The notes under the pieces: model-generated
Told to the model about the DNA's origin: nothing
Database searches by the model: none
The model's input: the letters and a program-made list of their open reading frames with translations, nothing else
In this document: positions 10,991-57,203 of the stretch, in pieces
Numbering within the stretch: the stretch's first letter is position 1
Layout: each line of letters starts with the position of its first letter
Position numbers and translations under genes: made by a program
From: Arthrobacter sp. zg-Y20
GTDB taxonomy: Bacteria > Actinomycetota > Actinomycetes > Actinomycetales > Micrococcaceae
Direction of reading: 5' to 3'
Assembly (NCBI RefSeq): GCF_030142075.1
Contig: NZ_CP126241.1
Location: forward strand, 1,550,001-1,614,000
DNA length: 64,000 bases

Positions 10991-13336
10991 ATGGACACCC
11001 AGGAACTGGTGAACAACAACGCCAGGGCCGTTGAGCTCGATATCCAGGGCATGACGTGCGCCTCCTGCGTGGCACGGGTGGAACGCAAGCTCGGCAAGAT
11101 CGAAGGCGTGGAAGCATCGGTTAACCTGCCGCTGGAAAGCGCGCGCGTAACGGCACCGGCTTCAGTGACGGACCAGCAGATCCTCGACGCGGTGAACTCT
11201 GCCGGTTACCAGGCACGGTTGAAGACCCGGGCCGGCAACTCCGCCGCGCATGGTGCGCATGCGGAGGGCAGCCACGCAGGCGAGGACCATCTGGCCCACG
11301 GCAGCCACGCAGGCGAGGACCATCTGGCCCACGGCGGCTCAGGCGAGGACCATATGTCCCACGGCGGGACCGCAGCACAGCTGCGTCCGCGGCTGATTGC
11401 CGCCGCCGTCCTCAGCGTGCCGATCCTGCTGATTTCCATGGTTCCGGCCCTGGCCTTCCCCAACTGGGGCTGGGTGGCCGCACTGCTGGCCCTGCCTGTG
11501 GTGACGTGGTCCGCGTGGCCCTTCCACCGGGCCGCGGCCATCAACGCCAGGCACCTGGCGTCCACCATGGATACCCTCGTGGCGATCGGCGTCGCGGCCT
11601 CGTATCTGTTCTCGGTGGGCGAGCTGCTGGCCGATCCGGGGCTGACCGCAGACCCGGGCATGGGCGCGGACCCGCACCTGTACTTCGAAGTGGCGTCGGT
11701 GGTGGTGACCTTCCTGCTGCTGGGCCGCTACCTGGAGGCCAACGCCAAGACCAAGGCATCGGACGCATTGAAATCGCTCCTGAGCCTAGGTGCCAAGGAC
11801 GCGACCGTGCTGCGCGGCGGAGAGGAAATCCGGATCCCGGCGGACCAGCTTGCCGTGGGCGACATTGCCGTAGTCCGGCCCGGGGAGAAAATCCCGGCCG
11901 ACGGTGTCGTGGTGGACGGCCGTTCCGCCGTTGATGCGTCCCTGATCACCGGCGAATCCCTGCCGGTGGAAGTGGACGTGGACAGCCCCGTTACCGGGGC
12001 GACCATTAATACTTCGGGCCGGCTGCTGGTCCGGGCCACCCGTGTGGGCAGCGAAACCACATTGGCGCAGATGGGCCGCCTGGTCAGCGATGCCCAGTCC
12101 GGCAAGGCGCCCATTGCGCGGCTCGCTGACCGGATCAGTGCAGTTTTTGTGCCGGTGGTGCTGGGCATTGCGGTGCTGACCTTCCTGCTCTGGCTGTTCT
12201 TCGCCGGTGACCTGCAGGCAGCGTTCGTGGCTGCGGTTGCCGTGCTCGTTATTGCATGCCCCTGTGCCCTGGGGCTGGCCACACCCGTGGGCCTGCTGAC
12301 CGGTACCGGGCGGGGTGCCCAGCTGGGCATCCTCATCAAGGGCCCGCAGGTGCTGGAAGACACCCGCACCGTGGACACCATCGTGCTGGACAAGACCGGA
12401 ACCATCACCACCGGCAAGCTGTCCGTGGCACGGGTCCGGCTCCTGGACAGTGCCCCCGCGGACCTGACGCAGGACGGGCTGCTGCGCCTGGCCGGCTCGG
12501 TGGAAGATGCCGGGGAGCATCCCATTGCCCGGGCCATCGCGGCCTCCGCCCGCTCCGGCCCGGGCACCGTCTCCGTCGCCGGATTCGATTCGGCTCCCGG
12601 CGGAGGGGTGCGCGGCACCGCTGACGGCCGCAGCGTTGTTGCCGGACGTCCGGCCTGGCTGGATGAGAACGGCGTCGACCTGCCCGACGGCGCGTATGCG
12701 GCACTGCGCCAGGAGCAGGCTGCCGGTTCGACGGCGGTGCTGGTGGCGGTGGACGGGCACGCGGCCGGCATCATCTCGCTGCAGGACACCCTGAAGGACG
12801 GCTCGGCGGCTGCCATTGCCAGGTTCCGCAGCCTGGGCCTGCGTCCGGTGCTGCTGACCGGTGACAACGCCGTGGTGGCGGCCCACGTGGCGGAACAGGT
12901 CGGCATTCCGGCGGAAGACGTCCTCGCGGACGTCCGCCCGGAAGGCAAGGTGGAGGCAGTCCGGCGGTTCCAGGACCAGGGACGTACCGTGGCCATGGCC
13001 GGCGACGGCGTGAACGACGCCGCGGCGCTGGCGCAGGCCGACCTCGGCATTGCCATGGGCACGGGCACCGACGTTGCCATGGAAGCGGCGGACCTGACCG
13101 TGATGGGCAGCGACCTGGGCCAGGTGGCCACCGCCATCGAGCTGTCCCGGCGTACGCTGGCGACCATCAAGACCAACCTGTTCTGGGCCTTCTTCTATAA
13201 CGCTGTGGGCATCCCGGTAGCGGCTTTCGGGCTGTTGAACCCGATGATTGCCGGAGCAGCGATGGCCGCCAGTTCGGTGCTGGTGGTGGGTAACTCGCTG
13301 CGGCTGCGCAGCTTCGGCAAACAGCACGCCCAGTAG
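10991..13336 (+). CDS. copA: Cu(I)-exporting P1B-type ATPase CopA
   Basis: A 781-residue copper efflux pump. Order: one N-terminal HMA domain (GMTCASC, Cys23/Cys26), a His-rich linker at about residues 80-122, membrane helices, actuator TGES, the transmembrane metal site CPC (Cys423-Pro-Cys425), the phosphorylation motif DKTGT (Asp467), and the hinge GDGVNDA near the end. The His-rich linker carries a 33-bp perfect tandem DNA repeat, so [11 protein letters not shown] is repeated, with a third degenerate unit. Third gene of the CsoR-controlled operon; ATG with AGAAGGGAAG upstream. A strong hairpin follows at 13355-13393. Confidence 0.96.
11267..11332 (+). repeat. 33-bp perfect tandem repeat encoding the His-rich linker of CopA
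   Basis: Two identical 33-bp units lie head to tail at 11267-11299 and 11300-11332, each encoding an 11-residue His-rich segment. A third, diverged unit follows to about 11359. Unit length is a multiple of three, so copy-number change would keep the frame. Confidence 0.9.
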
Positions 13337-36191: not shown

Positions 36192-36230
36192 GACACTGCT
36201 GAATCTGCTGCCGGATTGGGATCTTGCTGC

Positions 36231-36279
36231 CGGTTTGGGAAAACCCTCCGCTGCGCAGCGGCAGGGATTTCCCAAACCG
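36231..36279. repeat. Long interrupted inverted repeat
   Basis: Arms CGGTTTGGGAAA (36231-36242) and TTTCCCAAACCG (36268-36279) enclose a second dyad (CCGCTG/CAGCGG around CGC). It lies 39 bp after the hypothetical gene and 59 bp before the aldo/keto reductase, so it may end one transcript or lie in the leader of the next. Confidence 0.6.
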
Positions 36280-36338: not shown

Positions 36339-37316
36339 ATGACTTCCTACAACAGACTTGGCAATTCCGGACTCACCGTCTCCACAGTTGGGCTCGGTTG
36401 CAACAACCTGGGCCGCCCGGGAACCCCCACCGAATCGCAGGAGGGCACGGACGCCGTCATCAACGCGGCGGTCGACGCCGGTATTACGCTTTTTGACGTT
36501 GCCGACGCCTATGGTCGCACCCCGGGACTCAGCGAGGAAATGCTCGGGAAAGCGTTGGGCAACCGCCGCGGGGACGTGGTGGTAGCCACCAAATTCGGTA
36601 TGGACATGAAGGGCGTCAACGGTGCCGACTTCGGGGCACGCGGATCCCGGCGCTACATCGTCAAGGCCGCAGAGGCTTCCCTGCGCCGCCTGAACACGGA
36701 CTGGATTGACCTCTACCAGTTCCACACCCCGGACCCGCTCACGCCCATCGAAGAAACCCTGTCAGCCTTGGATGACCTCGTCACCAGCGGCAAGGTCCGG
36801 TACATCGGGCACTCCAACCGGGCCGGCTGGCAGATTGCCGAAGCCGAGTTTGTGGCCCGGATGGGTGGCTTCACGCCGTTCATTTCCTCGCAGAACCACT
36901 ACAACCTGCTGGACCGCCGGGCCGAGCTGGAAGTGACCCCCGCCGCCGAAGCCTACGGGCTGGGCGTGCTTCCCTACTTCCCGCTGGCCAACGGTCTGCT
37001 CACCGGCAAGTACAGCAGCGGCAAGGCTCCGGAAGGCAGCCGGCTCACCCACTCCCGGACCAACCTCTTGGAGAATGCGGACTTTGAGCAGCTGGCCGAG
37101 TTTGGCCGTTTCGCCGCCGAGCGCGGTCTGACCGAGGTGCAGGTGGCCTTCTCCTGGCTCGCTGCGCAGCCGTCGGTGGCGTCCGTGATTGCGGGAGCAA
37201 CGAAGGTGGAGCAGGTGCAGCAGAACGCCGAAGCTGTTTCGTGGGTGCCGTCGGAGAAGGACCTCGAGGAGCTGGACCGGATCTTCCCGAAGACGCCGAA
37301 GGTTGCCTTGTTCTAG
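36339..37316 (+). CDS. Aldo/keto reductase
   Basis: A 325-residue NADPH-dependent (beta/alpha)8 oxidoreductase. The catalytic tetrad is visible: Asp and Tyr in FDVADAYGRTPGLSEEMLG, Lys in VVATKFG, His in YQFHTPDP. NADPH-binding C-terminal part includes SVIAGATKVEQVQQN. It belongs to the YajO/perakine-reductase-like group. ATG start, ribosome site weak. Ends 22 bp before the first copy of the structured repeat, convergent with a hypothetical membrane gene. The substrate is unknown. Confidence 0.92.
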   Translation: MTSYNRLGNSGLTVSTVGLGCNNLGRPGTPTESQEGTDAVINAAVDAGITLFDVADAYGRTPGLSEEMLGKALGNRRGDVVVATKFGMDMKGVNGADFGARGSRRYIVKAAEASLRRLNTDWIDLYQFHTPDPLTPIEETLSALDDLVTSGKVRYIGHSNRAGWQIAEAEFVARMGGFTPFISSQNHYNLLDRRAELEVTPAAEAYGLGVLPYFPLANGLLTGKYSSGKAPEGSRLTHSRTNLLENADFEQLAEFGRFAAERGLTEVQVAFSWLAAQPSVASVIAGATKVEQVQQNAEAVSWVPSEKDLEELDRIFPKTPKVALF

Positions 37317-37334
37317 GGTCTGGGCGTCCGGGGG

Positions 37335-37423
37335 TCTGGAGGGTCCGGAACGGCGGCAACGAAAATCCCTTGCTCGCAGAGCTCGCCGGGATTATTAAAG
37401 CCGCCTAACCCGGACCCTCCGGA
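37335..37423. repeat. Structured repeat, copy A (inverted relative to copy B)
   Basis: Core 37345-37413 (69 bp) matches the reverse complement of 40265-40332 with one indel and one substitution. The whole can fold on itself: outer arms GGAGGGTCCGG (37338-37348) and CCGGACCCTCC (37410-37420), then GGCGGC/GCCGCC, then AATCCC/GGGATT. It sits between convergent genes. No transposase is nearby. Confidence 0.9.
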
Positions 37424-37479
37424 CGTCGTGGACGGCGTCGCCTAGCCCGAACCCTGCGGGCCTACGTGGATGGTGTCGT

Positions 37480-37878
37480 CTAGCCGGGAGCGCCCAGGTC
37501 CTCTGGGCAGATCCGAAAGACGGGATCGCCTTCGGCGAGGCGCTGTGAGTGTTCGATGGCGTCTATGCCAATGGCCCAATTGATCCAGACCGCCAAGGCT
37601 GCCGCCGCAAGGAGCAGCAGGGACGGGGCCAGCCTTTCCCGATTCCAAGGGCGGTAGCCCAGCGAGAGTATGGCTGCTGCAGCCGCCGTAACAGGCGGTA
37701 CCAAGGAAAGAGCCAGGACCCACTGGCGGCGTGGAACCTGCTGACCGTAGAAGCAGGCGCTGTGTCGGGGACGCAGTTCAGACTCATACCCAAACGCCAG
37801 GAATGTAGTAAAAAGGGCCACCACCATGGCGAAGAACCCCACCGTCAGGAATGTCCCGGCGTCGATGCGTCTGCTCAT
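37480..37878 (-). CDS. Hypothetical membrane protein
   Basis: A 132-residue protein beginning MSRRIDAGTFLTVGF at ATG 37878; the TTG six bases upstream lacks support. It has about three hydrophobic helices (residues ~8-28, ~50-75, ~82-105) and a short charged C-terminal tail. I do not recognise a family. It opens a run of small minus-strand genes whose base composition looks lower in GC than the flanks (36 of 60 bases in 37741-37800 by hand count). Confidence 0.6.
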   Translation of the reverse strand: MSRRIDAGTFLTVGFFAMVVALFTTFLAFGYESELRPRHSACFYGQQVPRRQWVLALSLVPPVTAAAAAILSLGYRPWNRERLAPSLLLLAAAALAVWINWAIGIDAIEHSQRLAEGDPVFRICPEDLGAPG

Positions 37879-37939
37879 GCGCAATAGTCAAGCACAGCTC
37901 TGGCCGCTCGCTGTTCGCAGGGTTCCCAGGGCGGAAAGC

Positions 37940-38227
37940 TCAGGCCGGCTTGGTGGCCTTGCCGTCCAGCCAAAGCGTTTCCGATTCGTCGCGGTGGGTT
38001 CCCGTTGTGCCGACGTGTTTCGTGCCGATTTCGGCACCGTTCTTAATAACGTGGACAATTGCCATCCCGTGGCCGCGTCCGATTCCGTAGTCCGCTTGGA
38101 GCCATTCCAGGATTTCCCCGGCCTTGGTGCTTTCGCCGAAACCTTTGGCCGCCGCTGCATCCACCAGTTGGCGGGGCGTTAATCCTGTCTTGTCCTCAAC
38201 CGCATCAAGGTAAGCCTGAAAGGACAT
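37940..38227 (-). CDS. DUF4287 domain protein
   Basis: A 95-residue protein starting MSFQAYLDAVEDKTGLTPRQ, which matches the DUF4287 pattern (a helical domain with a conserved GxGHxMA-like GIGRGHGMAIVHVIKNG). The domain occurs alone or fused to DUF5655-like modules in Actinobacteria and has no proven function. ATG start preceded by GAGGTAAAAGA. Surrounding bases 38041-38100 have 33 G/C of 60, lower than the chromosome core here. Confidence 0.8.
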   Translation of the reverse strand: MSFQAYLDAVEDKTGLTPRQLVDAAAAKGFGESTKAGEILEWLQADYGIGRGHGMAIVHVIKNGAEIGTKHVGTTGTHRDESETLWLDGKATKPA

Positions 38228-38260
38228 TCTCTTTTACCTCTGTTCGTGTTTGCGCCGAAA

Positions 38261-38455
38261 CTAGCGGGCGCGCTGCAGTCGGACCAGTATTACCAGGATC
38301 ACCGCCGTGAGTGCCAGCAGGATCCCGGCGAGAGTCCAGCGCCATGGCGCGGACCAGGGGAGAAGTACCGTCAGCCAGCCAAGAACTGCCGTGGCAAGTA
38401 TCAGCGCTACCACGCGCCGGCTTTGCCTGCGGTTTTCCTCCGACGTTCCCTTCAC
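38261..38455 (-). CDS. Small hypothetical two-helix membrane protein
   Basis: A 64-residue ORF with GTG start: charged N-terminus, then two hydrophobic helices (about residues 15-33 and 39-58) and a basic end (RLQRAR). No family recognised. It lies 33 bp upstream of the DUF4287 gene and 74 bp downstream of the tetR gene on the same strand. The ribosome site is weak, so coding status is moderate. Confidence 0.45.
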   Translation of the reverse strand: MKGTSEENRRQSRRVVALILATAVLGWLTVLLPWSAPWRWTLAGILLALTAVILVILVRLQRAR

Positions 38456-38529
38456 GTCCGGAAGGCTAGCGAAGGAGACCGTCCCTGCCCAGAGGGCCGG
38501 CGCTAAGCGGCCAGGTGCGCTGCAGGATG

Positions 38530-39210
38530 TCAGGCCCGCGGCAGCACACCCAGGAGCGCCGACGACAGGGCCATCCTTAGGGCGTCAGTGAGGTCTACGT
38601 GGAGGACACCCAGGGCGGGTTCCTCCGCATAGGCGGCAAGGAGGCTGGGGGGAGGCGGGACGTAGGAGGACAGTGCACCGGCAGTAACCAGTGCGATCAG
38701 GCAGAACTGCTGGGCTCCGTCCCCCAACTCTGGCAGGTGCCGGCACACGATGCCGGTCATGGCATCGAGCCTGGCCAGGGAGGCCCGCTTGTGCCGCTTG
38801 GCCACCTCAACCGAAATGTTGTGCTCCAAGACGCCGCCCTGCGCCCCGAACAGGTCGCACAGTACCGGGCGTGCCCCCAGGGACCGGCTGAGGATTTCGG
38901 CCAGCTGATCGGCCCGCACCGCCGGTGCCGCTTCGGGCTCGATGCCCATTGGGAGCTCCTGTGCCAACTCGGTGAGCCAGGTGCCCAGGAAGTCATCCAG
39001 CAGTTCGAGCAGCACTGCTTCGCGGGACTCGAAATAGCGCAGGACGTTGGACTTCGCCAGCCCCACCCGCCGGCTGAGCTCGTTGAGACTGACCCCGGCT
39101 ACCGGCATCTCGTCCAGCATTGCCGCTGCGGTGTCCAGGATGGCCCGACGCCGGGTCTCTTTCTGCTCTTCGCTGCGCGCCCGCTGGAATGTCACGCGGC
39201 CAGCATACAT
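38530..39210 (-). CDS. TetR family transcriptional regulator
   Basis: A 226-residue regulator. The N-terminal helix-turn-helix is ARSEEQKETRRRAILDTAAA through LSRRVGLAKSNVLRYFESR; the C-terminal ligand domain is largely helical with a Pro-rich turn (YVPPPPSLL). An alternative GTG at 39195 gives VTFQRARSEE; neither start has a good ribosome site. It is divergent from the SDR gene, and two ACC-N3-GGT dyads flank the SDR promoter, so it very likely represses that gene and itself. The ligand is unknown. Confidence 0.9.
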   Translation of the reverse strand: MYAGRVTFQRARSEEQKETRRRAILDTAAAMLDEMPVAGVSLNELSRRVGLAKSNVLRYFESREAVLLELLDDFLGTWLTELAQELPMGIEPEAAPAVRADQLAEILSRSLGARPVLCDLFGAQGGVLEHNISVEVAKRHKRASLARLDAMTGIVCRHLPELGDGAQQFCLIALVTAGALSSYVPPPPSLLAAYAEEPALGVLHVDLTDALRMALSSALLGVLPRA

Positions 39211-39213
39211 TAC

Positions 39214-39283
39214 GGACCGGCGGTCTATTGACGTGGGAAAGCAGGGCGCTTACGCTCGTCCTACGTAACAGACCAACGGTACT
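39214..39283 (+). promoter_or_regulatory. SDR promoter with two TetR-type dyads
   Basis: Promoter: -35 TTGACG (39228-39233), 17-bp spacer, -10 TACGCT (39251-39256). Dyad 1, GGACC-GGC-GGTCT at 39214-39226, abuts the -35; dyad 2, AGACC-AAC-GGTACT at 39270-39283, lies just past the start point. Shared core is ACC-N3-GGT. Ribosome site TAGGAG is at 39285-39290. Confidence 0.65.
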
Positions 39284-39295
39284 TTAGGAGCCCCC

Positions 39296-40213
39296 ATGAA
39301 CGTCAGTTGGAACGAGAACCACATCCCTGATCAGCACGGACGCGTGGCGATAGTGACCGGAGCCAACACCGGGCTGGGTTTTGAAACCGCCCGGATGCTC
39401 GCGGAACGGGGGGCGGCGGTGGTCCTGGCCGTACGAGACGTCGACAAGGGCAAGCAGGCGGCTGCCCGCATCAACGGGGACGCGAGCGTCCAGGCTTTGG
39501 ACCTGAGCTCACTGGAGTCGGTCCGGTCCGCTGCGGCGGCCCTGCGCGCAGACCACCCGCGGATAGACCTGCTGATCAACAATGCCGGCGTGATGTACAC
39601 GCCGAAGCGGACCACCGCGGACGGCTTTGAACTGCAATTCGGCACCAACCACCTCGGGCATTTCGCCCTCACCGGCCTGCTGTTGGACCGGCTGCTGCCT
39701 GTTCCCGGCTCGCGCGTTGTGACGGTCAGCAGCACCGGGCACCGCATCCGGGCCGATATCCACTTCGATGATCTCCAGTGGGAGCGTTCGTACAGCCGCG
39801 TCGGCGCCTACGGCCAGGCCAAGCTGGCAAACCTGATGTTCACGTATGAACTCCAGCGCCGTCTCGAACCCCTTGGTACCACCGTCGCGGTGGCCGCCCA
39901 TCCGGGCGTCTCCAATACGGAGCTCACCCGCAACACACCGGCAGCGCTTCGGGTGCCCGTCACCTGGCTCGCCCCGTACTTCACGCAGACTCCCGAGATG
40001 GGTGCCCTGCCCACCCTGCGTGCGGCTACCGATCCGGAGGTCACCGGCGGCCAGTACTACGGTCCCGGCAACCGCTCACAGACCCGCGGCTATCCGAAAC
40101 CTGTCGTCTCCAGCCCTGCCTCCCATGACCAAGCGGTCCAGCAGCGCCTCTGGACCATCTCGGAGGAACTCACGGGGGTAACCTTCCCTCTGGCCTCACC
40201 TCATCTCGCCTGA
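39296..40213 (+). CDS. Short-chain dehydrogenase/reductase
   Basis: A 305-residue SDR of the retinol-dehydrogenase/WWOX-like type. NAD(P)-binding [20 protein letters not shown] at residues ~18-37, structural NNAGVM, catalytic Ser in VSSTGH and YxxxK in YGQAKLAN. The substrate is unknown; the adjacent TetR regulator implies induction by a small molecule. ATG behind TAGGAG. Ends 51 bp before copy B of the structured repeat, convergent with the beta-oxidation gene. Confidence 0.92.
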
Positions 40214-40264
40214 GCTGACCTGACTGCGACCGCAACAGGACTGTTAACGAGAGCGCCGGACGGA

Positions 40265-40332
40265 CCGGGTTAGGCGGCTTTAATAATCCCTGCGAGCTCT
40301 GCGAGCAGGGATTTTCGTTGCCGCCGTTCCGG
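40265..40332. repeat. Structured repeat, copy B
   Basis: A 68-bp inverted copy of 37345-37413. Read on the minus strand, its inner stem AATCCCTGC/GCAGGGATT is perfect, and its outer arms (GGACCGG/CCGGTCCG) differ from copy A at both sides so that pairing is kept. Like copy A it lies between convergent genes. Confidence 0.9.
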
Positions 40333-40386
40333 TCCGCCCGGCGCGGACGGTAGGCGCGGACGGTAGGCGCGGGCGCCCGTTAGGGG

Positions 40387-42516
40387 CTAAGCAGCCACAG
40401 CCGCCTCGTGGAACTTCTTGCCATTAACCCGCTCGGACGCACCGACGCGGTCCAGGTACGGGGTAATTCCGCCCAGGTGCATCGGCCAGCCGGCACCGAG
40501 GATGACGCAGAGGTCGATGTCCTCGGGTCCTGCCACAACGCCGTCTTCGAGCATGAGCCCGATTTCCTCGGCCAGGGCGTCCTGCGTGCGGCGCAGGACT
40601 TCCTCGGACGTGGAGGGGGTGTTGCCGAAGTCCAGCATGGCCAGGGTTTCCTCCGGGATGTACTGGTTGCCGTTCTCGTCCTTCTGCCAAATGGACTTGA
40701 TGCCGGCGTCGATGATTTTCTGCTGGTTCTTGGAGACCCAGAAACGCTCGCCGAAGGCAGCGTGCAGGGATTCCTGCACGTGCTGGCCCACCGGCAGGCC
40801 CACCAGGGCGAGCAGGGTGAACGGAGACATCGGCAGGCCCATGGAACGCAGTGCGTTGTCTGCTGTGGCGGCGTCGGTGCCCTCGTCGTAGACCTTGGTG
40901 ATCTCGCCGAACATGCGGCCCAGGATGCGGTTGACCACAAACGCGGCCGCGTCCTTGACCAGCACTGCGGTCTTCTTGAGCTGCTTGGCCAGCACAAAGG
41001 CGGTGGCCAGGACGGCGTCGTCGGTCTTGGGTGCGCGGACAATTTCCAGCAGCGGCATCACGGCCACCGGGTTGAAGAAGTGGAAGCCCACCACACGCTC
41101 CGGGTGCTTGAGGTCCGCGGCCATTTCGGTGACGGAGAGCGAGGAGGTGTTGGTGGCCAGGATGCACTCGGGGGAGACCACGGCCTCCACCTCGGCGAAG
41201 ACCTGCTTCTTGACCGAGAGCTCTTCGAAGACGGCTTCGATGACGAAGTCGGCATCGGAGAAGGCTTCCTTGGAGACCGAGCCGGTAACCAGGGCCTTGG
41301 TGCGGTTGGCGGCGTCGGGGGAGATGCGCTTCTTGGCCAGGAGCTTGTCCACCTCGGCGTGCACGTAGCCCACGCCCTTGTCCACCCGTGCCTGGTCGAT
41401 GTCCGTCATGACCACGGGGACCTTGAGTTGGCGGGCGAAGAGCAATGCCAGCTGGCTGGCCATCAGGCCGGCGCCTACCACGCCCACCTTGGTGACCGGG
41501 CGGGCGAGCTTCTTGTCCGGGGCGCCGGCGGGGCGCTTGCCGCGCTTCTGCACCAGGTCCAGGAAGGCGTACACGGTGGAGCTGAACTGGGGGGACTGCA
41601 TCAGTTCGGCCAGGGCGTCGCACTCGGCTTCGCGGGATTCCTCACGGGTCCAGGTCTTGCCCTTTTCGAGCAGGTCCAGCACCTTTGCCGGGGCAGGTGC
41701 GGCGTTGGAGGTCTTGGCCTCCACGAAGGCACGGCCCTTGGCGACGGCGGCGTCCCACGCTTCGCCGGCGTCGGCAGGCTCGACGGCGTTGGGCCGCTCC
41801 ACCTTTTCTTCGCCGCTGATTACGCGGGAGGCCCAGGCCAGGGACTGCTCGAGGAAGTCCGCCGGCTCGAACAGTGCGTCGGCGATGCCCAGCTTGTAGG
41901 CGGCCGGACCGGCGAGGGTGCGGTTGTTGCTCAGCGGGTTCTCGATCATCACCTTGACAGCGTTCTCGGGGCCGATGAGGCGCGGCAGCAGGTAGACGCC
42001 GCCCCAGCCCGGGACCAGGCCGATGAAGGCTTCCGGCAGGGCCAGTGCACCGGCGCCGGTGGACACCGTGCGGTAGTCGGACTGCAGGGCAATCTCCAGG
42101 CCGCCGCCCAGGGCCACACCGTTGATGAAGGCGAAGCTGGGAACCCCCAGGGTGCCCAACTTGCCGTAGACGTCGTGGCCCAGGCGGGCCATGGCGTAGC
42201 CGGCTTCGATGTCGGAAATGGACTTCACAGCGGACAGGTCGGCGCCGGCCACCAGGTAGAAGGGCTTGCCGGTGACGCCCACGCCCACAATTTCGCCGGC
42301 GTCGGCGCGGACCTTGAGTTCGTCCAGCTTTTCGCCGAGCTCCAGCAGGGTGTTCGGGCCCAGCGTGGTGGGACGGGAGTGGTCGACGTCGTTGTCCAGG
42401 GTGATCAGCGCGAAGGTGCCGGCATTGCCGGGGAGCGCGATGTCCGAGACGTAGGAGTGGGTAACAACCTCGGTGGGGAAGAGGCCCGCGAGGCGCTGGT
42501 AATCGGGAGCAGACAT
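40387..42516 (-). CDS. fadB: Multifunctional enoyl-CoA hydratase / 3-hydroxyacyl-CoA dehydrogenase
   Basis: A 709-residue beta-oxidation alpha-subunit type enzyme. The N-terminal crotonase domain (about 1-200) hydrates enoyl-CoA (ALGGGLEIALQSDYR, then EAFIGLVPGWGG); the Rossmann domain starting KVGVVGAGLMASQLAL (about 340) and its C-terminal helical domain oxidise 3-hydroxyacyl-CoA (GFHFFNPVAVMPLLEIV with the catalytic His). The Rossmann loop is GAGLMA instead of the common GAGTMG. The start is ATG 42516, which overlaps the fadA stop by one base (TAATG); upstream in-frame codons lie inside fadA. Cotranscribed with fadA. Confidence 0.95.
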   Translation of the reverse strand: MSAPDYQRLAGLFPTEVVTHSYVSDIALPGNAGTFALITLDNDVDHSRPTTLGPNTLLELGEKLDELKVRADAGEIVGVGVTGKPFYLVAGADLSAVKSISDIEAGYAMARLGHDVYGKLGTLGVPSFAFINGVALGGGLEIALQSDYRTVSTGAGALALPEAFIGLVPGWGGVYLLPRLIGPENAVKVMIENPLSNNRTLAGPAAYKLGIADALFEPADFLEQSLAWASRVISGEEKVERPNAVEPADAGEAWDAAVAKGRAFVEAKTSNAAPAPAKVLDLLEKGKTWTREESREAECDALAELMQSPQFSSTVYAFLDLVQKRGKRPAGAPDKKLARPVTKVGVVGAGLMASQLALLFARQLKVPVVMTDIDQARVDKGVGYVHAEVDKLLAKKRISPDAANRTKALVTGSVSKEAFSDADFVIEAVFEELSVKKQVFAEVEAVVSPECILATNTSSLSVTEMAADLKHPERVVGFHFFNPVAVMPLLEIVRAPKTDDAVLATAFVLAKQLKKTAVLVKDAAAFVVNRILGRMFGEITKVYDEGTDAATADNALRSMGLPMSPFTLLALVGLPVGQHVQESLHAAFGERFWVSKNQQKIIDAGIKSIWQKDENGNQYIPEETLAMLDFGNTPSTSEEVLRRTQDALAEEIGLMLEDGVVAGPEDIDLCVILGAGWPMHLGGITPYLDRVGASERVNGKKFHEAAVAA

Positions 42517-43757
42517 TACTTCGTGGCCTCCGTGGAATCGGTGTTGTAGTCGGGGTGGTTCGGGTTTTCCCAAATCACCGTGGCGCCCATGCCCAGGCCG
42601 ATGCACATGGTGGTCATGCCGTAGCGGACACTGGGGTCTTCCTCGAACTGGCGGGCCAGCTGGTTCATCAGGCGCACGCCTGACGAGGCCAGCGGGTGCC
42701 CGACGGCGATGGCACCGCCGTAGCGGTTGACGCGGGGATCGTCGTCGGCAATGCCGAAGTGGTCCAGGAAGGACAGGACCTGGATGGCGAAGGCTTCGTT
42801 GATTTCGAACAGGCCGATGTCCTCAATGGACAGGCCGGTCTGCTTCAGCACCTTTTCGGTGGAAGGCACCGGGCCGTAGCCCATGACCTCCGGTTCGACG
42901 CCGGCGAAGGCGTAGCCGACCAGGCGCATTTTCACTCCCAGGCCGAGTTCCTCGGCGGCTTCGGCGGAGGCGAGCAGCGCGGTGGTGGCGCCGTCGTTCA
43001 GGCCGGCGGCGTTGCCCGCAGTGACCCGGCCGTGGGCGCGGAACGGGGTGCGCAGCTGGGCGAGGTCCTCAACCGTGGTGCCGGGGCGCGGCGGCTCGTC
43101 CACGGTGTTCAGGGTCCATCCGGTGCCGGGCTTCTTGGTGGCAACGGGCACCAGGTCAGGCTGGATCTCGTTGTTGGCGTAGGCCTTGGCGAGCTTCTCC
43201 TGGCTGGCGGCGGCGTACGCGTCGGTGCGCTCCTTGGTGATGTGCGGGAACCTATCGTGCAGGTTCTCGGCGGTGTTGCCCATGTTCAGGGCTGCCGGGT
43301 CCACCAGGCGTTCGGTCATGAAGCGGGGGTTGGGATCGGCGTCCTTGCCCATCGGGTGGTTGCCCATGTGCTCCACGCCGCCGGCGATGACGACGTCGTA
43401 GGCGCCGAAGCCGATGCCCGAGGCGGTGGTGGTCACGGCCGTCATGGCGCCGGCGCACATGCGGTCGATGGCGAATCCGGGGACCGTGCGGGGCAGGCCA
43501 GCCAGCAGGGCGGCGGTGCGGCCGATGGTCATGCCCTGGTCACCGGACTGGGTGGTGGCCGCGATGGCTACTTCGTCAACGCGTTCCGGAGGGAGGGAAG
43601 GGTTGCGGCGCATCAGCTCGCGGATGCACTTGACCACCAGGTCATCGGCCCGCATGCCGGCGTAGATACCCTTTTCGCCGGCTTTGCCGAACGGGGTCCG
43701 CACTCCGTCAACGAAAACTACGTCCCTGATCTGCCGTGATCGGCTTTGTGGGCTCAC
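42516..43757 (-). CDS. fadA: Acetyl-CoA acyltransferase (3-ketoacyl-CoA thiolase)
   Basis: A 413-residue thiolase that cleaves 3-ketoacyl-CoA, the last step of beta-oxidation. Nucleophile Cys101 lies in DRMCAGAM, the catalytic His in GGAIAVGHPLASSGVR, and the second Cys in TTMCIGLGMGATVIW. GTG 43757 follows AGAGGAG at seven-base spacing; ATG codons further upstream lie in the operator region and are not used. First gene of the fadA-fadB operon. A perfect 20-bp palindrome lies 46 bp upstream of the start and is the likely repressor site. Confidence 0.95.
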   Translation of the reverse strand: MSPQSRSRQIRDVVFVDGVRTPFGKAGEKGIYAGMRADDLVVKCIRELMRRNPSLPPERVDEVAIAATTQSGDQGMTIGRTAALLAGLPRTVPGFAIDRMCAGAMTAVTTTASGIGFGAYDVVIAGGVEHMGNHPMGKDADPNPRFMTERLVDPAALNMGNTAENLHDRFPHITKERTDAYAAASQEKLAKAYANNEIQPDLVPVATKKPGTGWTLNTVDEPPRPGTTVEDLAQLRTPFRAHGRVTAGNAAGLNDGATTALLASAEAAEELGLGVKMRLVGYAFAGVEPEVMGYGPVPSTEKVLKQTGLSIEDIGLFEINEAFAIQVLSFLDHFGIADDDPRVNRYGGAIAVGHPLASSGVRLMNQLARQFEEDPSVRYGMTTMCIGLGMGATVIWENPNHPDYNTDSTEATK

Positions 43758-50690: not shown

Positions 50691-53216
50691 ATGAGTACCG
50701 CGAAAACTTCCCCGAAGAATGCCCCCACATCCAGCACAGCCGGGATGGTCCGCGTGCGCGGCGCGCAGGAAAACAACCTGCGCAACGTCGACGTCGACAT
50801 TCCCCGCGACGCGATTGTCGCCTTCACCGGCGTCTCCGGTTCGGGCAAATCCTCCCTGGCTTTCGGTACGATCTACGCCGAGGCGCAGAAGCGCTACTTC
50901 GAATCAGTGGCTCCGTATGCCCGCCGGCTGCTGTCCCAGGGGCACACCCCCAAGGTGGAGGAAATCACCGGGCTCCCGCCCGCCGTCGCCCTCCAGCAGC
51001 GCCGCGGCGCCCCCAGTTCCCGCTCCACCGTGGGCACCCTGACCACGCTGTCGAACTCCATGCGCATGCTCTTCTCCCGCGGCGGAACCTATCCGGCAAA
51101 CGCCGAGCCGGGCAGCCTGGACTCTGATGCCTTCTCGCCCAACACGGCCGCGGGCGCCTGCCGGGAGTGCTCCGGGCTGGGCATCGCCCATACCGTCACC
51201 GAGGATTCGCTGGTGCCGGACCCGTCGCTGACCATCCGCGAAGGCGCCATTGCTGCCTGGCCGGGGGCCTGGCAGGGCAAGAACCTGCGGGACATCCTCA
51301 TTCAGCTGGGCTACGACGTCGACGTGCCCTGGCAGAAAATGTCCAAGAAGGACCGCGACTGGATCCTGTTCACCGAGGAACAGCCCGTCGTGATGATCAC
51401 CCCGCAGCGTGACCGGGTGGCCAAACCGTACAAGGGCCGGTTCTGGAGCGCGAAGAGTTACGTTATGCACACGCTGGCTGATTCGGGCAGCGCACAGATG
51501 CGTGAACGTGTTCTCGCCTACATGGTTTCGGGCCCCTGTCCGGTCTGCGGCGGCGCCGGCCTGCGCCCGGAGGCCCTGGCCGTCACCTTCGCCGGCCGCA
51601 ACATTGCCCAGCTGAACGGTGCCACTCTGGCCGAGCTTGCCGAGATCATCCGGCCGACGGCGGAACTGAAGTCCGCCGGCACTGCCTCCCGCGCAGCGGC
51701 CTCCAATGAAGACACCGAAGTGGCGGTGACCATCACCCGCGACCTGCTTGGCCGGCTGGAGGTGCTGATCGGCCTTGGCCTGGGCTACCTCAGCCTCTCG
51801 CGCGCCACCCCCACCCTCTCGCCGGGGGAGATGCAGCGCCTGCGCATCGCCACCCAGCTGCGCTCCGGCCTGTTCGGGGTGATCTACGTGCTGGACGAGC
51901 CTTCGGCCGGCCTGCACCCGGCCGACGCCGAGCCGCTGCTGACCGTGCTGCAGGAACTGAAGGATGCCGGCAACTCGGTGTTCGTTGTTGAGCACAACAT
52001 GGACGTGGTCCGCAGTGCGGAGTGGATTGTCGACGTCGGCCCGCAGGCCGGCGACGGCGGCGGCACCGTGCTCTACAGCGGCCCGGTTGACGGACTGGCG
52101 GAGGTAGAGGAAAGCGCCACGCGTCCGTTCCTGTTCGGCGAAGCGCAGACCGCACCGCCGGCCCGCCGCACACCCGATGAGTGGCTGACGCTGAAAGGCA
52201 TCACCCGGCACAACCTGCACGGCCTGGACGCGGACATCCCGCTGGGCGTACTCACCGCAGTCACCGGCGTTTCCGGTTCCGGCAAGTCCACCCTGGTCAG
52301 CCAGGTGCTGGCCGAAACAGTGGGCCGGCAGGTCAACGGAGCGGCTCCGGAGGCCGACGACACGGAAGACACCGAGGACGACGATCCCGGCGTGCAGGTG
52401 CGGTCCATCGCAGGGTTGGAACACCTGGACCGGCTGGTCCGGGTGGACCAGCGGCCCATCGGCCGGACTCCGCGCTCCAACCTGGCCACCTATACGGGCC
52501 TGTTCGACGCCGTGCGGAAGCTCTACGCCTCAACCGACGAAGCCCGCTCGCGCGGCTACACCGCCGGCCGGTTCTCCTTCAACGTGGCCGGGGGCCGCTG
52601 CGAGACGTGCCAGGGTGAAGGCTTCCTCGCCGTCGAACTGCTGTTCCTGCCCGGCACCTACGGACCGTGCCCCGTCTGCCACGGCGCCCGCTACAACAAG
52701 GAAACCCTTGAGGTAACGTACCGGGGCATGTCCATTGCGGACGTGCTGGATATGCGGGTGGAGTCCGCTGCGGAGTTCCTCTCCGACGTGCCGGCTGCCT
52801 CCCGCAGCCTGCAGACCCTGCTCGATGTCGGGCTCGGTTACCTGCGCCTGGGCCAGCCCGCCACCGAGCTCTCGGGCGGCGAAGCGCAGCGGATCAAGCT
52901 CGCCACCGAACTCCAGCGTGCCCGCCGCGGACACACGCTCTACCTGCTGGATGAGCCCACCACCGGCCTGCACCCGCAGGACGTCCAACTGCTGCTGCGC
53001 CAGCTGAACCGTCTCGTCGATGCGGGCAACACCGTGGTGGTGGTGGAACACTCGATGAACGTGGTGGCTTCCGCCGACTGGGTGATCGACATGGGTCCTT
53101 CGGGCGGCGAAGAGGGCGGCCGGATCATGTGCGCCGGCACCGCCGCCGACGTCGCCGGTTGCGAGGCAAGCCGGACGGCGCCTTATCTGGCGGCGGCGCT
53201 CCAAACGCTGGGCTAG
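50691..53216 (+). CDS. UvrA2-like excinuclease ABC protein
   Basis: An 841-residue UvrA-family ABC ATPase. Two ATPase cores are present (Walker [13 protein letters not shown] near residue 45 and [11 protein letters not shown] near 530; signatures LSPGEMQRL and LSGGEAQRI). Zinc-finger pairs CREC/CPVC and CETC/CPVC remain. Compared with UvrA (about 950 residues) it lacks the first zinc module and the UvrB-binding segment, going straight from [15 protein letters not shown] to CREC. That is the UvrA2 (DrrC-like) form, linked to damage tolerance or drug resistance rather than standard excision. ATG 50691 is preferred; the longer frame to 50490 has no support. The last 34 bp before the end are duplicated at 55417-55450. 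Confidence 0.88.
53166..53199 (+). repeat. 34-bp direct repeat, copy 1 (inside 3' end of UvrA-like gene)
   Basis: This 34-bp stretch, encoding [11 protein letters not shown] of the UvrA-like C-terminus, is identical to 55417-55450. The two copies flank the glycosyltransferase gene in direct orientation. Confidence 0.9.
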
Positions 53217-55397: not shown

Positions 55398-55433
55398 GGC
55401 GCCGTCCGGCTGGGACGCAAGCCGGACGGCGCC
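55398..55433 (-). terminator. Hairpin downstream of the KstD-like gene
   Basis: Arms GGCGCCGTCCGGCT (55398-55411) and AGCCGGACGGCGCC (55420-55433) form a 14-bp perfect stem 30 bp past the KstD-like stop on the minus strand. The right arm is part of direct-repeat copy 2. No T run. Confidence 0.55.
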
Positions 55434-55450
55434 TTATCTGGCGGCGGCGC
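55417..55450 (+). repeat. 34-bp direct repeat, copy 2
   Basis: Identical to 53166-53199. In the equivalent frame it still reads [11 protein letters not shown], continuing REMTG and a stop at 55463, but upstream codons show no resemblance to the UvrA-like protein. Confidence 0.9.
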
Positions 55451-55463
55451 GGGAAATGACTGG

Positions 55464-57203
55464 TTAGTGTCCGGCGGGCCGCTCCGCCGAGCCGGCAGCG
55501 GCAGCCGGGGCGCCCTTGCCGGCGGCGTCCCGTGCCGCAATGTAGCCGTACACCAGGCCTTGGCCGATGGTGGCGCCTGCCCCGGGGTAGCTCTTGCCGA
55601 AGACGTTCGCTGCCGTGTTGCCGATGGCGTACAGCCCCTCCAACACGGTGCCGTCCTCGCGCAGGACCCGCCCGCGGGCATCCGCGGTCAGGCCGCCGCA
55701 GGTACCCAGATCCGAGAGCACCATCTTGACGGCGTAAAAGGTCTTGCCGCTCAGGGGGCGCAGGTTCGGGTTGGGCCGGATGGTCGGGTCGCCGTAGTAG
55801 CGGTCGTAGGCGCTGGAGCCGCGGTGGAAGTCCTCGTCCACGCCGGCTGCGGCGACTTCATTGAAGCGGGCCGCCGTGGCCGTGAACGTGTCTTCGGGCA
55901 CCCCGATGCTCCGGGCGAGCTCGGCCAGGCTGCCGGCCTTCGCGGCGATGCCCGCCTCGTACCATGCTGCGGGCAGCGGCGAGCGGGGGTACAGCGCGCC
56001 GGCCAGCAGATAGCTGTTGCGGTATTCCTGGTCAAAGATCATCCACATGGTGCCCACCGGGTCGCCCTGCTTCTCCCGCTCCAGCACATGCTGGCCGAAG
56101 GACATGTAGTTCTCCGCCTCGTTCACGAACCGCTTGCCGGCGTCGTCCACAATAAACGAGCCCGGCAGGGAACGCTCCGCCAGCATCACCGACGGTGCGG
56201 CCCCGGGCAGCGGCGCGACGGCGGGGAACCACCAGGCCTGGTCCAGGAGTGCGGTGCCGGCGCCGGCGTCCACACCGGCCTTGATGGCGTCACCGGTATT
56301 GCCTTCGGCGCCGAAGCTCCACCCTTCAAGGGCTGGGGACTGGTGCTTGTGCCGCAGGGCCATGTCGTGGTCAAAGCCGCCGGCGGCGAGCACCACGCCC
56401 TGGCGTGCCGTCACCGTCACCTCCGTGCCGTCCTGCTCCAGGACGGCACCGGTGACCCGGCCGCCGTCGGAAATCAGCCGAACCAGGGATGTTTCCGTCC
56501 AGACCGGGATGCCCGCCTTCAGCACTCCGGCAAACAGCCCGGCAGCGAGGGCCTGCCCGCCGGCGACATAGTCCCGTTTCAGTGCCAGTCCGCCGATTCC
56601 CTGCACCGCTCGCCTCACTGCGGTCGGGAAGCCCTTGGCCGGGACCTTGGCGAGCAGGTTCAGCCAGCGGTAGTCCTTGCCCGTGATGGGCATGGGCAGG
56701 GGTGCCTCCATGGTGCCGCCGCGGAGCCGGGCGCGTTCGGTCCCCAGCCGGTTGGCGTCGAAGGGAATACATTCACAGCTGCGGCCGATGGCGGAGCCGC
56801 CCGGCTGCTCGGGCTGGTAGTCGGAGTACTCCTTGTCCCACATAAAGCGCATGGGGGTGGTCCGGCGCAGCATGTCCACGGTGTCCGTGCCGTTGTCGAG
56901 GAAAGACTGCCAGCGTTCCCGCGGGGAGGTGTCGCCGACGACGGCGTCCACATAGGCGGCCGCGCGGGCGGGGGAATCGGGGGCACCGGCTTCGCGCAGG
57001 ATCGGGTTGTCCGGAATCCAGAACGCACCGCCGGACCGTGCCGTCGAGCCGCCCACGTAGGCGGTCTTCTCTGCGATCAGGACGGAGGACCCCAGTTCGG
57101 CGGCGGCCAGTGCAGCGGCCATACCGGTGCCGGAGCCGATCACCAGCAGGTCCACCGTGGTGTCCTGTGCCGTTGCGGTGCGGACGGGTGCGGATTTGGG
57201 CAT
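55464..57203 (-). CDS. FAD-binding dehydrogenase (KstD-like)
   Basis: A 579-residue flavoprotein of the fumarate reductase/3-ketosteroid delta1-dehydrogenase type. The FAD-binding motif is LLVIGSGTGMAAALAAAELG at residues ~19-38, with GGSTARSGG following; the C-terminal SYPGAGATIGQGLVYGYIAARD is the second FAD-contact/catalytic block of KstD. ATG 57203 has AAAGGAG (57210-57216); an upstream in-frame start is not needed. Steroid or related cyclic ketones are probable substrates, but no other steroid gene is nearby, so the name is provisional. A large hairpin sits 8 bp upstream of the ribosome site. Confidence 0.85.
   Translation of the reverse strand: MPKSAPVRTATAQDTTVDLLVIGSGTGMAAALAAAELGSSVLIAEKTAYVGGSTARSGGAFWIPDNPILREAGAPDSPARAAAYVDAVVGDTSPRERWQSFLDNGTDTVDMLRRTTPMRFMWDKEYSDYQPEQPGGSAIGRSCECIPFDANRLGTERARLRGGTMEAPLPMPITGKDYRWLNLLAKVPAKGFPTAVRRAVQGIGGLALKRDYVAGGQALAAGLFAGVLKAGIPVWTETSLVRLISDGGRVTGAVLEQDGTEVTVTARQGVVLAAGGFDHDMALRHKHQSPALEGWSFGAEGNTGDAIKAGVDAGAGTALLDQAWWFPAVAPLPGAAPSVMLAERSLPGSFIVDDAGKRFVNEAENYMSFGQHVLEREKQGDPVGTMWMIFDQEYRNSYLLAGALYPRSPLPAAWYEAGIAAKAGSLAELARSIGVPEDTFTATAARFNEVAAAGVDEDFHRGSSAYDRYYGDPTIRPNPNLRPLSGKTFYAVKMVLSDLGTCGGLTADARGRVLREDGTVLEGLYAIGNTAANVFGKSYPGAGATIGQGLVYGYIAARDAAGKGAPAAAAGSAERPAGH

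Follow-up and report, generated by a model that had tools for sequence, protein, structure and literature searches.

Two inverted copies of a structured repeat between convergent genes

Arthrobacter sp. zg-Y20 carries two inverted copies of a structured repeat, A and B, within the 64-kb window analysed here (the whole stretch of DNA under study, taken from a 3.53-Mb genome designated G000). Copy A follows an aldo/keto reductase (AKR) gene, copy B follows a fadB-like gene, and a 2.85-kb block containing a DUF4287 gene, a gene for a TetR-family regulator and one for an SDR-family oxidoreductase lies between them (Table 1). Genes were called by a custom script, which missed a 134-amino-acid open reading frame (ORF; 37480-37884, minus strand) located between A and the DUF4287 gene. 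As the original prediction held, both copies are positioned between convergent genes, with AKR (+) and DUF4287 (-) flanking A and SDR (+) and fadB (-) flanking B.

Comparison of A with the reverse complement of B shows 76/81 identical positions. None of the other inverted pairs in the window, which has 45 in all, is as long as their main match (37363-37422 / 40256-40315; 60 nt, 90% identity), and a second inverted segment (37342-37370 / 40307-40335) spans 29 nt at 97% identity. When folded on either strand, A and B give minimum free energies of -53.9 to -69.2 kcal/mol with z scores of -6.8 to -8.5 (-7.8 for A over 37335-37425, and -8.5 for B), and in each case none of 200 shuffles folded as well. 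The presence of two inverted structured copies is thus confirmed, as is the claim that they differ by one indel and one substitution, at least for the 53-54 nt core (an extra T in A, and a single C/A difference). The repeat was originally taken to be about 69 nt long; it is real, but a covariance model termed R2 (89 rows, 84 positions) places the copies at G000:C1:1587338-1587421 and G000:C1:1590257-1590339, and the outer arms reach further. These arms also differ between A and B, and pair inside each copy.

Table 1. Repeat copies and flanking genes, in window coordinates.
Feature	Position	Strand	Basis and remarks
Copy A	37338..37421	+	R2 model match; sense to aldo/keto reductase gene
Copy A core (GGCGGC...GCCGCC)	37352..37405	+	Pattern match and alignment
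Copy A internal loop, 5' side, AACGAAA (last A paired)	37358..37364	+	AACGAAA in 168/168 elements, partly by construction (see text)
Copy A internal loop, 3' side, TATTAAA (first T paired)	37393..37399	+	TATTAAA in 156/168 elements, partly required by the collection patterns
Copy B	40257..40339	-	R2 model match; sense to fadB-like gene
Copy B core	40273..40325	-	Pattern match
Aldo/keto reductase (AKR) gene	36339..37316	+	PF00248; stop 21 bases from copy A
DUF4287 gene, convergent with AKR	37940..38227	-	PF14117; gene call
TetR-family regulator	38530..39210	-	PF00440, PF17929
SDR-family oxidoreductase	39296..40213	+	PF00106
fadB-like gene	40387..42519	-	PF02737, PF00725, PF00378; stop 47 bases from copy B

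A repeat family spread through the genus

BLAST using copy A as query and a covariance model trained on ten copies agree on ten places in the genome, of which A and B are two; an exact pattern recovers eight of the ten. Two additional weak model matches (E 0.003 and 0.005, 28-29 bits) were left uncounted. The ten-copy model was then applied to 29 genomes of the genus, 28 of them relatives of G000, and all contain copies, from 2 to 21 each and about 290 in total. The prediction of a dispersed, REP/MITE-like family is thus supported.

Outside the genus the element becomes sparse. With stricter filters, R2 gave matches in 38 of 245 genomes drawn from the family. Of these, 17 belong to the window's genus and 14, with 2-3 copies each, to a genus designated g32; the remaining 7 have 1-3 copies. 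The exact pattern, which overlooks variants such as those in G059, G105 and G124 that R2 finds, matched 5 of 396 genomes of the order, all from the window's genus or g32. Records matching the strict pattern belong, among the matches listed, to Arthrobacter together with one Paenarthrobacter. Viral contigs yielded no strict-pattern match, and carriage by phages was rejected on this ground.

Rfam 15 gives no match at gathering threshold in the window, and of the four matches with E values up to 10 in 37250-40450 none overlies A or B. We found no description of the family in Rfam 15 or in the literature searched; the main text of a survey of stem-loop families is without Arthrobacter (PMC2267715), and one Arthrobacter genome is listed in a table of a survey on REPs (PMC12306157). 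We regard the element as a new, apparently undescribed family of dispersed, structured repeats at gene ends; it abounds in one genus and is sparse among a few neighbours.

Anatomy of the element and selection on its structure

For a closer description, 168 elements were gathered with the pattern GGCGGC[N]ACGA...[AT]AAGC[CG]GCC; decayed or variant copies fall outside these counts, and because 110 of the elements came from stretches picked with a stricter pattern, the invariance of pattern letters is partly by construction. Read in the plus direction of A, the element passes from an outer arm through an unpaired step, a GGCGGC/GCCGCC stem, a loop and an inner stem to the tip. The outer arm varies in sequence by site, and each arm pairs with its own partner. 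The step on the 5' side of the core is GGAAC in 129/168 elements, and that on the 3' side is TAACCC, TTCCTC or TCCGCC in 130/168. An asymmetric internal loop, AACGAA / ATTAAA, is closed by an A-T pair; all seven letters of AACGAAA were required for 110 of the 168 elements and four of the seven for the other 58. In the distant genus g32 the loop variants TATTGAA, TACGAAA and CACGAAA occur. Letters of the inner stem change on both sides, and the tip often includes CTCGCAGAGCTCGC.

The core is alike at unrelated sites: the 89-row alignment has 24 invariant and 17 nearly invariant columns among its 85, partly by construction, and five of the six pairs of the middle stem are invariant, their letters being mostly demanded by the search pattern. 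The inner helix has eight pairs with changes on both sides. Doubly changed cells in this stem number 114 compared with 35.8 (sd 5.3) in shuffles, and its covariation score is 0.199 against 0.076 after shuffling; none of 500 shuffles was as high by either measure, and controls in which the pairing was slid scored lower. Selection on structure, which had been proposed from A and B, is supported by these compensatory changes. The outer arms score a mean of 33.4 when paired with their own partner and 24.2 with the arm of another element, and arm pairing gives an element span of 113-141 nt (interquartile). Most likely a protein or RNase recognises the core stem and the asymmetric loop near the tip, while the outer arms need only pair.

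In two relatives, G006 and G011, the inner stem is ACTCC...GGAGT in 8/10 and 6/7 of the listed copies, respectively. The fadB site of G006 also has ACTCC...GGAGT, where other lineages have AATCC or ATTCC. This sameness may reflect recent amplification or gene conversion. G006 also contains two same-orientation copies whose starts are 120 bases apart (G006:C6:426515-426598 and 426635-426718), possibly a tandem duplication.

Elements are found at the 3' ends of genes

In all, 165 distinct elements were placed relative to genes: 76 are in convergent gaps, 66 are codirectional and sense, 21 are codirectional and antisense, and 2 have one flank missing. None of the 163 with both flanking genes called lies in a divergent gap. 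When the 168 elements are sorted according to the gene that turns its 3' end towards them, 47 site families result. With 3 of these omitted for want of both flanks, the per-site comparison counts 19 families in convergent gaps, 25 in codirectional ones (14 sense, 11 antisense) and 0 in divergent ones. By comparison, 291 control gaps without an element (100-1300 bases long, drawn partly from the window and partly from loci of overlapping species; not fully independent) were 12 convergent, 169 codirectional and 110 divergent. This enrichment at gene ends agrees with the terminator-like position originally predicted. Some subfamilies have common outer arms at different sites.

A number of copies are situated inside operon gene pairs. 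Between rpoB and rpoC there are 14 sense elements with the core 33-41 bases past the rpoB stop, and 6 antisense elements, in other species, 39-64 bases from it. Likewise grpE-dnaJ has 3 sense elements and 1 antisense, and nadE 4 and 1; both orientations thus occur at one gene gap in different species. Five sense elements lie between pyrH and frr (the frr name was checked in the window's genome only). In genus g32 the ten loci inspected were grpE-dnaJ (7) and rpoB-rpoC (3). Transcription of rpoC and dnaJ normally proceeds by read-through from the upstream gene, and an efficient terminator is therefore unlikely in these two gaps.

We folded 30 rpoB-rpoC gaps from across the family. The element is present in 6 of them; inspection by eye showed nothing strong in 4 (G053, G080, G062 and G057), and all remaining gaps have a strong hairpin of another kind. 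In G035 this is a plain hairpin, while its congener G065 has the element. We note that most other Micrococcaceae rpoB-rpoC loci in the set L268-L297 have a strong unrelated hairpin just past the rpoB stop; in many of them a stretch ahead of rpoC is alike between loci and resembles GACATTCAGATTTAGAGAACAAGAGAGAACAGGGACC.

Copies A and B belong to separate gene ends

The original prediction also raised the possibility that A and B are sites for inversion of the block they bracket. We located fadB in the 28 relatives and examined 6-kb stretches past its 3' end, using one assembly per relative. A sense element is present at the fadB 3' end in 20/28, one of them decayed (56 bits); 3 more have only the outer hairpin, from which most of the inner module is gone, and the other 5 gave no match. 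Among these five, G008 has a terminator-like hairpin followed by what seems to be the element's right half, and in G014 comparable outer arms carry a different tip, with a T run after it. The AKR 3' end has an element in 15 of the 16 relatives with AKR inside the stretch, albeit two are decayed in the core. What lies between AKR and fadB varies, with DUF4287 in 14/16 and TetR/SDR in 2/16 (G026 and G010). Two relatives, G024 and G001, have an AKR gene with its element about 32 and 25 kb away from fadB; these genes match that of the window at 91% and 87% identity.

Each copy therefore stays with its own gene end whatever intervenes, even where the two genes are tens of kilobases apart, and the bracketing of the block is a coincidence: A belongs to the AKR 3' end and B to the fadB 3' end. 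That A and B recombine and flip the block had in its favour the two near-identical inverted copies and further pairs in relatives with a plus copy followed by a minus copy. Such pairs are however expected, because two convergent genes each have their own element, and the strand of DUF4287 is unchanged in 14/14 relatives that have it there and that of TetR/SDR in 2/2. With a single block orientation in these relatives, one assembly each, we rejected an invertible segment, and consider block flipping extremely improbable.

Comparison with known repeats

REP sequences are described as dispersed palindromic repeats, mostly downstream of genes and in convergent or codirectional gaps, that are thought to act as RNA; they are 20-40 bp long, with a GTAG or CGTC motif at one end (PMC3733652). 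The Arthrobacter element shares with REP/BIME the dispersed palindromes at gene ends and the absence from divergent gaps, but has 84 model positions, a conserved asymmetric loop near the tip and variable ends. GTAG occurs at a fixed place in at most 6/168 elements. CGTC is found at one fixed place in 44/168, within the outer arm of one subfamily and not at the foot. The original prediction had suggested a check for RAYT-type transposases; Y1_Tnp (PF01797) was detected in 0/29 genus genomes, with the control search positive in 5/14 known genomes, and a RAYT-driven REP is not borne out.

ERIC/IRU and NEMIS/Correia are short dispersed palindromes cotranscribed with genes, ERIC being linked to an RNase E site and NEMIS being a proposed RNase III target; both are described as having fixed terminal repeats and target duplications, and the effect of ERIC depends on orientation (PMC2229807). 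They resemble the Arthrobacter element, with which they were compared by description only, in being short, dispersed and palindromic, but differ in those fixed ends. SPRITE of Streptococcus pneumoniae is a terminator-like repeat over-represented between convergent genes, at their 3' ends (PMC3049150), a location similar to that seen here, although SPRITE consists of an 18-bp duplex and a long tract rich in U, whereas the Arthrobacter element has three stacked stems, conserved loops and mostly no T run. The element resembles an RNA hairpin of the REP/ERIC type yet, by the tests made, is not a REP.

Integron attC sites, in which RYYYAAC and GTTRRRY boxes are paired, were considered too. Assignment to this class was rejected: the TAACCC flank needed for the box is present in only 75/168 elements (integrase genes were not searched).

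Proposed function and alternatives

We hold, at roughly even confidence, that the A/B family acts mainly as an RNA hairpin at mRNA 3' ends or between cistrons. The element would be transcribed at a gene end or between two genes of an operon, and the long hairpin formed by the transcript would define or protect the mRNA 3' end, reduce convergent read-through, or separate the fates of two cistrons, with the conserved stem and loop being read by a specific protein or RNase. It is our inference that RNA is the active form, that it influences the mRNA, and that the core is bound by a specific factor. A more elaborate version, which we offer tentatively and with considerably less confidence, is that a factor in Arthrobacter recognises the core module at the tip of site-specific hairpins, and that this module is copied to new gene ends, flips inside the palindromic arms at fixed gaps such as rpoB-rpoC and grpE-dnaJ, and coordinates how the mRNAs of core operons, among them the one for RNA polymerase, are processed.

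Several observations weigh against an RNA hairpin of this kind. Four or more T residues within 8 bases past the outer stem are found in only 27/168 elements on the plus side and 1/168 on the minus side, so that few look like textbook terminators. At the fadB site the element is accompanied by a terminator-like hairpin in G002 and G018 and by another hairpin in G003, and one copy in the window's own genome, at locus L006, has a stop codon on one side and a terminator-like hairpin on the other; the element is therefore not simply a terminator substitute. Two measures of covariation are unimpressive, with 8 doubly changed pairs against 5.9 in shuffles (26/500 as high) and 22 further pair types against 22.0. 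Of the 163 elements with both flanks, 21 are antisense to the sole gene end facing them. The inner-stem mispairs are also awkward, with 19 C.A and 2 A.C cells on the plus strand compared with 7 G.T and 2 T.G, most of the latter two in rows with another loop. Under a stricter rule the distinct events are 22 versus 0 in elements sense to the gene and 2 versus 0 in antisense ones, C.A being G.U on the other strand, and the C.A excess extends to sense elements behind codirectional genes. Such mispairs are unexpected if sense RNA were the sole functional form; the other strand may fold, as antisense RNA or single-stranded DNA, or the 5' arm may be held by a binding protein. The outer arms show no clear bias (39 G.U versus 27 A.C distinct events, p 0.18; 9 versus 10 among antisense cases), and an apparent G.U excess there (178 versus 93) was discarded because the alignment rewarded both kinds and the events were not independent.

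Among the alternatives, that of a non-autonomous mobile REP/MITE-like DNA deserves the most attention, although we regard it as doubtful. Here an enzyme recognising the folded core would spread the element, and its position at gene ends would reflect tolerance of insertion, which is how a pneumococcal study reads the convergent enrichment of its own repeats (PMC3049150). The range of 2-21 copies per genome, the subfamilies with common outer arms at different sites and the two orientations at one gap speak for mobility. So does the L006 copy, which is absent in 14 of the 28 relatives, those that were read there; most of these show a terminator-like hairpin instead, and from this sequence comparison the copy reads as a gain in the window's genome. 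The flanks at L006 are too diverged to reveal a target duplication; none was seen, with no close empty site for comparison, and no fixed end is visible in the site-specific outer arms. Against mobility are the lack of a Y1/RAYT transposase in all 29 genomes (other transposase families were not searched), the retention of copies across species in gene pairs such as rpoB-rpoC, and the compensatory changes, which imply selection on the copies themselves.

A DNA-level site would bind a nucleoid or topology protein, either as duplex DNA or as an extruded hairpin, a role already proposed for REP/BIME; it would account for the occurrence of either orientation and for strand-specific inner-stem mispairs regardless of gene direction. 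We nevertheless think it improbable: the arms change in sequence while their pairing stays, a pattern that fits a folded single strand better than a duplex site, and none of the 163 copies is in a divergent gap. Slightly less credible still are ordinary bidirectional intrinsic terminators that resemble each other by chance. A bidirectional terminator had been among the original suggestions, and the gene-end, convergent position fits, as does the T run that follows the outer stem at single sites, for example at fadB of several species. At this site G008, G023 and G024 have terminator-like hairpins without the core. However, the core is conserved at unrelated sites, copies lie within the rpoB-rpoC and grpE-dnaJ gaps, most copies are without a T run, and terminator-like hairpins stand alongside elements. 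We rejected plain terminators for the first two of these reasons, the core being too conserved and sites lying inside gene pairs.

The proposed RNA hairpin function lends itself to experiment. The natural copies in the 29 genomes provide matched sites with the full element, the outer hairpin alone, a terminator-like hairpin, or none, and make a REP-like hairpin function at gene ends directly testable, while the rpoB-rpoC copies point to control of the mRNAs for RNA polymerase subunits.

Other repeats in the window

A separate near-perfect hairpin, GGTTTGGGAAAACCCT...AGGGATTTCCCAAACC, is located at 36230-36279 between a 122-amino-acid ORF and the AKR gene. A 62-base direct repeat (53155-53216 and 55406-55467, 82% identical), found by the genome search at these two places only, apparently consists of the coding ends of two neighbouring genes, with a stop codon at the end of both copies, in the same register. 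Finally, three head-to-tail copies of a 33-base repeat are present at 11267-11362, the second being 100% and the third 76% identical to the first.

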